NCBI RefSeq assembly: GCF_003259695.1
Contig: NZ_PZJH01000001.1
Coordinates: 620,001-684,000, forward strand
DNA length: 64,000 bases
Direction of reading: 5' to 3'
Source of the DNA: Macrococcus epidermidis
GTDB taxonomy: Bacteria > Bacillota > Bacilli > Staphylococcales > Staphylococcaceae
The notes under the pieces: generated by a model
Database searches by the model: none
What the model was told of the DNA's origin: nothing
The model's input: only the letters and a program-made list of their open reading frames with translations
Position numbers and translations under genes: made by a program
Shown: piece after piece, positions 61,336-62,799 of the stretch
Numbering within the stretch: the first letter of the stretch is position 1
How the letters are laid out: the number at the start of each line of letters is the position of its first letter

Positions 61336-61366
61336 TAGCACTCACAATTATTTGTGAGTGCTTTAT
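61336..61366 (+). terminator. Terminator after infB
   Basis: AGCACTCACAA (61337-61347) and TTGTGAGTGCT (61352-61362) pair perfectly around TTAT, followed by TTATTTG. It cuts the nusA-infB transcript before the inserted NERD gene. Confidence 0.85.
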
Positions 61367-61567: not shown

Positions 61568-62464
61568 TTGTTTATAAAAACAGCAGTGAAACCACCACAA
61601 CTTGAATATTTAGAAGAAGTTCATGGTAGAACACATATGACTGAATCGGATAGACGAAAATATTTCAATTTAAAATTGGGCTATGAAGGTGAAAAGAAAG
61701 TTTATGATTTTCTGAATCAGTTTAAGCAAGGTGTCTGTATTTGGGATGTACGACTGAATATATGCGGAGAGATACAATTTGACTTCTTTGTGATAGTTAA
61801 TGGAATTATTTTTATATTAGAAATTAAAAATTTTTACGGAAACTATACATATAAAGATGGCAATCTGAAAAGTGAAAGTGGTTATGTATGTCGAGATGTA
61901 TTTTCTCAGGCAAGTAATGAACGAGATAAATTTGAAGCGTTTTGTTATGAACAAAATATTCATTATAAAATTGTAAATAAAGTCGTATTTGTTAATGAGA
62001 CTTTCAAGGTGATTAATAATGTAAAAGATATTAAATTTAGTAATATGTCTGATATCGAAAATCTTGCAAGATACATGTGTAGTTTTGAAATTACCGATGA
62101 GGATATTGCGATTGGTGAATTGATTGTTAAGCATCATATTGAGCAATCGAAAAATGAACAGAAGCATTTTTATCCATATGAAAAAATGACACGTGGATTG
62201 AAATGTCCAGAATGTCACAGATTTCTGAAAGTGAATCGCAATGCGAAGAAAAAAGTTAAATGTACATGCGGCCATGTAATGGATAAATCTAAAGCTATAA
62301 TTGAAGCGTTTAGAAAAATCGAAATGCTGAAAAGGGATAGTGTAAGTGTTAGTGAAGTTGGTGAGTGGATTGATTGTAATCCGTCAGGCATCCGAAAAAT
62401 ATTAGGGGAAAATTTTATTAAGATAGGTACACATAAGAACAGGAAGTATAAAACTATTATATAA
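61568..62464 (+). CDS. NERD-domain protein with zinc ribbon and C-terminal HTH
   Basis: A 298-residue protein not normally found in this operon. Residues about 38-150 match the nuclease-related domain: GYEGEKKVYDFL (38-49), then the nuclease-like acidic pair QFDFF (Asp72) and FILEIKNFYG (Glu85, Lys87). A four-cysteine ribbon follows (Cys213, Cys216, Cys232, Cys234), and residues 250-298 look like a winged helix (SVSVSEVGEWIDCNPSGIRKIL). NERD proteins are predicted DNases of the PD-(D/E)XK type, mostly uncharacterised. It starts at TTG behind GAGGTGAT, is flanked by the infB terminator and the 61-bp repeats, and probably transcribed alone. The function is unknown. Confidence 0.82.
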   Translation: MFIKTAVKPPQLEYLEEVHGRTHMTESDRRKYFNLKLGYEGEKKVYDFLNQFKQGVCIWDVRLNICGEIQFDFFVIVNGIIFILEIKNFYGNYTYKDGNLKSESGYVCRDVFSQASNERDKFEAFCYEQNIHYKIVNKVVFVNETFKVINNVKDIKFSNMSDIENLARYMCSFEITDEDIAIGELIVKHHIEQSKNEQKHFYPYEKMTRGLKCPECHRFLKVNRNAKKKVKCTCGHVMDKSKAIIEAFRKIEMLKRDSVSVSEVGEWIDCNPSGIRKILGENFIKIGTHKNRKYKTII

Positions 62465-62470
62465 TAAGTC

Positions 62471-62760
62471 AGATGCTAGCGATAAACACGTAATATCGCT
62501 AGCAAGTTGCAATTTTTTGTTGAAATAGTGAAGATGCTAGCGATAAACACGTAATATCGCTAGCAAGTTGCAATTTTTTGTTGAAATAGTGTAGATGCTA
62601 GCGACAAACCAGCGTTATCGCTAGCACCTAGCAAAATAATGTAGAAATAGTGAAGATGCTAGCGACAAACCAGCGTTATCGCTAGCACCTAGCAAAATAA
62701 TGTAGAAATAGTATAGATGCTAGCGACAAACCAGCAATATCGCTAACAACTCAAAGCCCG
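62471..62760 (+). repeat. Five tandem 61-bp repeats, each with an inverted repeat
   Basis: Units start at 62471, 62532, 62593, 62654 and 62715, an exact 61-base period. Each opens with AGATGCTAGCGA and contains GCTAGCGATA...TATCGCTAGC or a close variant, able to form a ten-pair hairpin with a nine-base loop. Units 1 and 2 are identical except the last base; units 3 and 4 differ from each other only in the last two bases and form a second type; unit 5 starts as the second type and decays after its first half. The period is not a multiple of three and there are stops, so it is not coding. The array begins 6 bases after the NERD stop codon. Confidence 0.95.
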
Positions 62761-62770
62761 ACCCCTTCAA

Positions 62771-62799
62771 TTGACATCACCACGGTACCGACGTATAAT
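62771..62799 (+). promoter_or_regulatory. Consensus promoter of rbfA
   Basis: TTGACA (62771-62776), 17-base spacer, TATAAT (62794-62799): a perfect vegetative promoter. Around it (62753-62793) the DNA is markedly more GC-rich than the surrounding intergenic DNA. Confidence 0.88.

Follow-up and report, generated by a model that had tools for sequence, protein, structure and literature searches.

A gene for a nuclease-related domain (NERD) protein in Macrococcus epidermidis is followed directly by a tandem array of palindromes, and the two would together be one module in a large family that pairs nucleases with repeats, a reading in which our confidence stands about midway between doubt and conviction. 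Gene and array lie in the window, by which we mean the whole 64,000-nucleotide stretch analysed (contig NZ_PZJH01000001.1, positions 620,001 to 684,000 of the forward strand), in a genome of 2.49 Mb (G000). Sequence comparison demonstrates the pairing of gene and array, palindromes private to each paralogue, spacing in whole helical turns, further array copies in trans and a conserved active site. The arrangement is apparently previously undescribed; we found no published description of NERD genes with repeat or hairpin arrays in a search that had most subscription journals and bioRxiv outside its reach.

Tandem Repeats Finder (TRF) detects the array with a period of 61, 4.6 copies and a score of 323 (Table 1), and no other array in the window has a period exceeding 25 bp. 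It begins 6 bp past the NERD stop codon and has rbfA on its other side. TRF and a pattern search agree on the five copies, the exact 61-base period and the two sequence types (two copies, then three) that an earlier sequence-only reading had described, and the coordinates given there deviate by about 10 bp at most. The base change noted in one arm of units 3–5 was likewise recovered: GCTAGCGACA faces TATCGCTAGC in these units, giving a C·A mismatch on the + strand and a G·T wobble on the − strand. An exact pattern search of the same genome returned nine such hairpins, compared with 0 for the reversed-pattern control, and single units fold at z of about −3 to −5, which together exclude a chance origin of the hairpins.

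The association of gene and array extends across Bacilli. Among 155 full-length NERD–zinc-ribbon–winged-helix genes, pooled from many families including the window's genus and other genera of its family, a TRF array lies on the 3′ side, no more than 300 bp away, in 118 and on the 5′ side in five, bearing out the suggestion that the repeats are tied to the NERD gene. These arrayed loci were picked for holding a NERD gene; as a baseline, 678 kb of G000 taken irrespective of NERD genes contains 11 non-coding arrays with periods of 36–130 bp, and all 11 are of the NERD type, with four beside NERD genes and seven elsewhere. When 25 array-less NERD genes were read, most proved to carry one or two hairpins on the 3′ side, below the repeat-finder threshold, and one array-less orthologue (L048) has the same palindrome as its arrayed relatives. 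Genomes of the genus contain several NERD paralogues (4–13 matches per genome). Behind most of these genes stands an array of palindromic units whose sequence is particular to the paralogue, and its distance from the stop codon is usually no more than a few tens of bases. At locus L091 (G000:C11:367303-367329) the first palindrome overlaps the NERD 3′ end and stop codon, so that the repeat starts within the coding region. The most distant NERD relatives examined have arrays of 20–21-bp direct repeats (two helical turns), often on both sides of the gene. At L214–L216 and L232–L236, from other Bacilli, such direct-repeat arrays stand on one or both sides without clear palindromes, and repeats of this kind may be dispersed genome-wide. 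In the sample from the rest of the phylum, outside Bacilli, no NERD match reached E < 1e-20.

Palindromes differ from one NERD paralogue to the next and are shared mostly by close orthologues alone. Using half-sites determined with a non-wrapping inverted-repeat finder, we found a half-site in common in 75% of protein pairs at ≥75% identity and in about 1% of pairs below 40% (Mantel p = 0.001, with sampling that follows phylogeny and several tests that are mutually dependent). The sharing of half-sites thus tracks protein identity, making the palindrome a property of the orthologous group. The GCTAGCGA palindrome is present in 5/5 genus genomes that have an orthologue of the window NERD gene (G000 and all four others found) and in 0/4 that lack it. 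The sequence-only reading had held that repeats missing from other genomes with the gene, or scattered without NERD genes, would argue against a functional pairing; copies away from the gene do exist, but within the genus they are confined to genomes with an orthologue. A second palindrome, TGGCCGATA, behaves like GCTAGCGA, trans arrays included. Among the NERD genes recovered from genome G002 there is no TGGCCGATA-type gene (the nearest are 57–65% identical and have another palindrome). The five TGGCCGATA sites of G002, exact or nearly so, each consist of a single copy, whereas arrays are present in genomes with a TGGCCGATA-type NERD gene. These sites, from one genome and with single copies occurring in other genomes as well, hint at a possible trace of cognate loss. 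At the 5′ edge of the arrays at L016, L017 and L028, a related but different hairpin of the GGTTGCGATAAA..TATCGCAACC type precedes the GCTAGCGA units and may be left over from an older specificity.

The spacing of the palindromes is quantised. Array periods fall at 39–43, 50–53 and 61–63 bp or multiples of these, corresponding to four, five and six helical turns, with none at 44–49 or 54–60 bp. With proteins clustered at 45% identity, periods of 36–70 bp are found in 43 clusters, every one of them within 39–43, 50–53 or 60–63 bp, and the circular statistic gives R of about 0.90 at 10.3–10.5 bp. The period windows were set after the data had been seen, so the binomial p of 3e-19 overstates the effect; the circular statistic is independent of them. 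On the protein tree the period class changed about 11 times, always to another whole number of turns. Such spacing is expected for proteins on double-stranded DNA and not for RNA, in which hairpins would be connected by single-stranded linkers.

Arrays of the same palindrome also occur in trans. Each genus genome with the orthologue has additional GCTAGCGA arrays elsewhere, 3′ of other genes; one in G000 (C22:198059-198391) has a DJ-1/PfpI-like gene on one side and a transglycosylase-like gene on the other, and genomes G002 and G003 have several more such loci. The trans arrays in G000 lie downstream of a same-strand gene. Those with a co-directional gene after them are closer to the stop codon before them than to the following start codon, and some come shortly after an intrinsic terminator. 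Across 14 GCTAGCGA loci, conservation is 98% in the stem, 66% in the loop and 58% in the linker. Comparing the cis locus between G000 and G003, the stem is 95% and the linker 34% conserved, the latter close to random, and the 61-bp step is exact in both. Units within one array are near-identical, linkers included; this uniformity within arrays, together with the divergence of linkers between loci, indicates fast turnover and homogenisation of arrays during which stem and step are held.

The window protein matches Pfam NERD (PF08378) with 40.4 bits against a gathering score of 22.1. Across 26 divergent paralogues (17–72% identical to it), G38, G41, E42, D72, K87, G210 and the four zinc-ribbon cysteines are invariant, and the nuclease residues among them form a GxxGE..D..(E/D)xK pattern, indicating strong selection on the nuclease site. 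The N-terminal half of the AlphaFold2 model resembles PD-(D/E)XK nucleases (Can2, Z 7.0; BstEII, 6.9; McrC, 6.6; Hjc, 5.8); scores in this range (5.5–7) are moderate for the fold alone, as is that of the winged helix. In the predicted structure, E42, D72 and K87 make up the catalytic constellation of a PD-(D/E)XK fold. A sequence search found no solved homologue. By this gene, the closest named relatives are Macrococcoides goetzii (96% identical) and Macrococcoides bohemicum (90%). The NERD protein evolves faster than its neighbour, with 72% identity between G000 and G003 compared with 96% for rbfA.

The position next to rbfA is shared by all five genus genomes that have the orthologue. In genome G006 infB and rbfA are separated at this spot by just 128 bp, which include a terminator of its own and a promoter resembling the window's but no module; the NERD gene plus array is thus an extra module relative to the G006 arrangement. 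At L157, from another genus, rbfA likewise has a NERD gene before it, so this spot is either old or repeatedly used. In genome G005 (L245), unrelated sequence is succeeded, just 5′ of rbfA, by a piece coding for the infB C terminus; the arrangement looks like the result of an element integrating at the 3′ end of infB with duplication of that end. The sequence 5′ of rbfA in genomes G004 and G007 (L243 and L244) is longer than, and different from, that in G006, and the intergenic region therefore seems insertion-prone in the genus.

Table 1. Coordinates of the NERD gene, its array and flanking context in the window
Feature	Position	Strand	Evidence
NERD nuclease–zinc-ribbon–winged-helix gene, 298 aa, TTG start	61568..62464	+	Pfam NERD PF08378 E=4.7e-10; AlphaFold2 predicted local distance difference test (pLDDT) 92.2, predicted template-modelling score (pTM) 0.85
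PD-(D/E)XK nuclease domain, ~residues 33-171	61664..62080	+	invariant residues and fold comparison
Zinc ribbon, invariant C213 C216 C232 C234	62204..62269	+	paralogue alignment
C-terminal winged helix, ~residues 236-298, proposed DNA-reading part	62273..62461	+	VIA-align to PefI 2jt1, Z 6.9, root-mean-square deviation 2.7, 63 residues
Five-unit palindrome array, exact 61-bp period	62471..62751	+	repeat search and sequence
Palindrome unit 1, GCTAGCGATA..TATCGCTAGC	62475..62503	+	pattern search
Palindrome unit 2	62536..62564	+	pattern search
Palindrome unit 3, GCTAGCGACA..TATCGCTAGC	62597..62625	+	pattern search
Palindrome unit 4	62658..62686	+	pattern search
Palindrome unit 5, degenerate right arm (..CGCTAAC)	62719..62747	+	sequence
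infB intrinsic terminator, 5′ of the inserted NERD/array module (context)	61337..61362	+
rbfA promoter, 12/12 sigma-70 consensus, 3′ of the array (context)	62771..62799	+

We propose that the NERD protein acts on its own repeats. The winged helix would probably bind the palindrome as a dimer, and phasing at four, five or six turns would probably let many copies align on one face of the DNA. Less certainly, the intact PD-(D/E)XK site may nick or cut at or beside the palindromes, and the ensuing repair may expand and homogenise the arrays and occasionally copy them to new places. The pair would then parallel a single-copy RAYT transposase and the family of repetitive extragenic palindromic (REP) sequences that belongs to it, an arrangement reached independently with a different nuclease. 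RAYT enzymes that accompany REPs or REPINs are distinct and single-copy, have cognate palindromes beside the gene and elsewhere, diverge together with them and evolve faster than their neighbours (PMC2817692, PMC3116915). The NERD system resembles this in its distinct single-copy nuclease genes, each with its own palindromes adjacent and more copies in extragenic DNA, in the correlation of gene presence with cognate dispersed palindromes (in a clade-structured sample), and in the joint divergence of protein and palindrome with a gene that outpaces its neighbours. The enzymes differ, RAYT being an IS200/IS605-type tyrosine transposase and the protein here a PD-(D/E)XK NERD nuclease with a zinc ribbon and a winged helix; a Pfam scan of the NERD protein returned NERD alone and no Y1_Tnp (HUH tyrosine transposase) domain. 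The layout differs too, the NERD repeats being tandem at four, five or six turns, placed in most cases on a single side of the gene, and present at a handful of sites per genome and not hundreds. Inverted REPs on both sides of the gene, as RAYT genes have them, find no counterpart in arrays that so predominantly lie 3′, and only the distant group often has arrays on both sides. We therefore rejected membership in the RAYT family, in view of both enzyme and repeat layout.

Several observations weigh against this proposal. Binding and cleavage at the palindromes are what we infer, unlike the pairing of gene and array. Arrays persist beside the broken NERD genes at L101 and L102, and thus the protein is not immediately required. 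The presence of the GCTAGCGA palindrome in all five genomes with the gene and none of the four without it does not amount to nine independent observations, as possession or lack of the pair follows clades. Co-evolution with the palindrome is no tighter for the winged helix than for the nuclease domain (Mantel r of 0.35 compared with 0.33). Relative to the gene on their 5′ side, arrays are always oriented the same way (14/14 loci with a readable gene, about six of them independent), which a plain binding site on double-stranded DNA neither needs nor explains. Between close strains, no movement of an array was caught. As a separate observation, the broken NERD genes at L101, L102 and L042 all still have an array or hairpin on the 3′ side.

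The array might alternatively be a chromosomal dock that keeps a phased NERD nuclease harmless until an invader, or loss of the array, frees or activates it against DNA. Although several paralogues per genome with differing palindromes and invariant catalytic residues would suit such a guard, as would the occurrence of NERD domains in defence proteins, a weak match of a distant paralogue to MADS MAD6 and the presence of Can2/Card1 and McrC among the nuclease neighbours in the PDB, we regard this role as unlikely. The sole PADLOC match among the NERD proteins, a marginal one to MkoA, came from a distant paralogue, and by PADLOC the pair is not clearly a defence system. Housekeeping functions predominate around nine NERD genes, where few of 69 neighbours match a defence model. 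Plasmid, phage and viral collections returned no NERD relatives to single-protein queries, which would show fairly close relatives alone. Within these 69 neighbours in G000, single strong PADLOC matches were to the mad2, mad3, DolB and PDC-M37B models.

A little less probable, in our estimate, is that the protein uses the arrays as binding sites for silencing of its gene or for nucleoid organisation, with cleavage playing a minor part. Helical phasing suits cooperative binding, and a trans array is retained at the orthologous site in several species. The arrays, however, lie 3′ of genes and not at promoters, an architectural role makes many private specificities per genome unnecessary, and the catalytic site is invariant.

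The hairpins could also function as RNA, as 3′ untranslated structures bound or cut by the NERD protein in the manner of the repeat RNAs of type III toxin–antitoxin systems. Arrays directly 3′ of genes in a single orientation, with hairpins stable on both strands, fit this idea, but we consider it improbable on three grounds. First, an RNA or single-stranded DNA hairpin should favour one strand in its pairing errors, and in the arrays amenable to this test (those with non-wrapping arms) we counted 71 distinct G·T errors on the gene strand and 80 A·C errors, the equivalent of G·T on the other strand. This lack of strand bias favours a protein site on double-stranded DNA, and the C·A mismatch in window units 3–5, itself one of these errors, speaks for such a site. 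Second, the period is quantised in DNA turns even though RNA linkers would be single-stranded; with the pairing errors, this bears out the option of a protein site on DNA that the sequence-only reading had set beside RNA pairing. Third, the winged helix and PD-(D/E)XK fold indicate DNA, and an Rfam search of the repeats found no family at gathering score. Type III toxin–antitoxin systems (ToxIN, AbiQ) likewise have a nuclease gene beside a tandem-repeat array, with several systems per genome, and their repeats are RNA encoded 5′ of the toxin gene. We rejected this assignment in view of the 3′ position of the NERD arrays, the absence of a single-strand signature in the pairing errors and the spacing in DNA turns.

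That the repeats are neutral, slippage-expanded DNA in an incidental location, as the sequence-only reading had allowed, is scarcely credible: copy number does differ between species, but the NERD association in 118 of 155 genes, the conservation of stems and not linkers and the survival of exact, quantised spacing through near-complete linker turnover all speak against it. For the other role suggested there, nothing was found in favour of a centromere-like locus; a part for the window array in recombination is possible.

Other known systems resemble the NERD pair in single features. CRISPR arrays have conserved repeats of about 30 bp with a period of about 61 bp and distinct spacers between them. 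The NERD arrays share the approximate repeat length and period, and we rejected this identity on the grounds that their linkers are near-identical within each array and are not distinct spacers. The nuclease-related domain itself is shared with SmdA, a membrane protein that lacks several conserved NERD residues and for which no cognate repeat is described (PMC9040797). The SIRU/STAR repeats of S. aureus were also considered and no link was drawn, since within the family sample the NERD profile was found in just three genus g3 genomes.

Our proposal that the NERD protein acts on its own repeats would make the window pair a representative of a new and widespread class of bacterial nuclease and DNA site, which we put forward a shade more cautiously than the reading of gene and array as one module. 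In this class a PD-(D/E)XK–zinc-ribbon–winged-helix protein would read palindromes spaced in whole turns and would build and spread its own arrays, with many private specificities per genome, as a second, independently evolved solution of the RAYT/REP kind. If so, odd intergenic tandem repeats across Bacilli would become one class, each linked to a gene, and the pairs would form a natural collection of matched DNA-binding specificities, with many natural protein/palindrome combinations as a source for a winged-helix recognition code. Two questions would thereby be opened to test: how bacterial tandem repeats originate and stay uniform, and what the widespread, almost unstudied NERD domains do.
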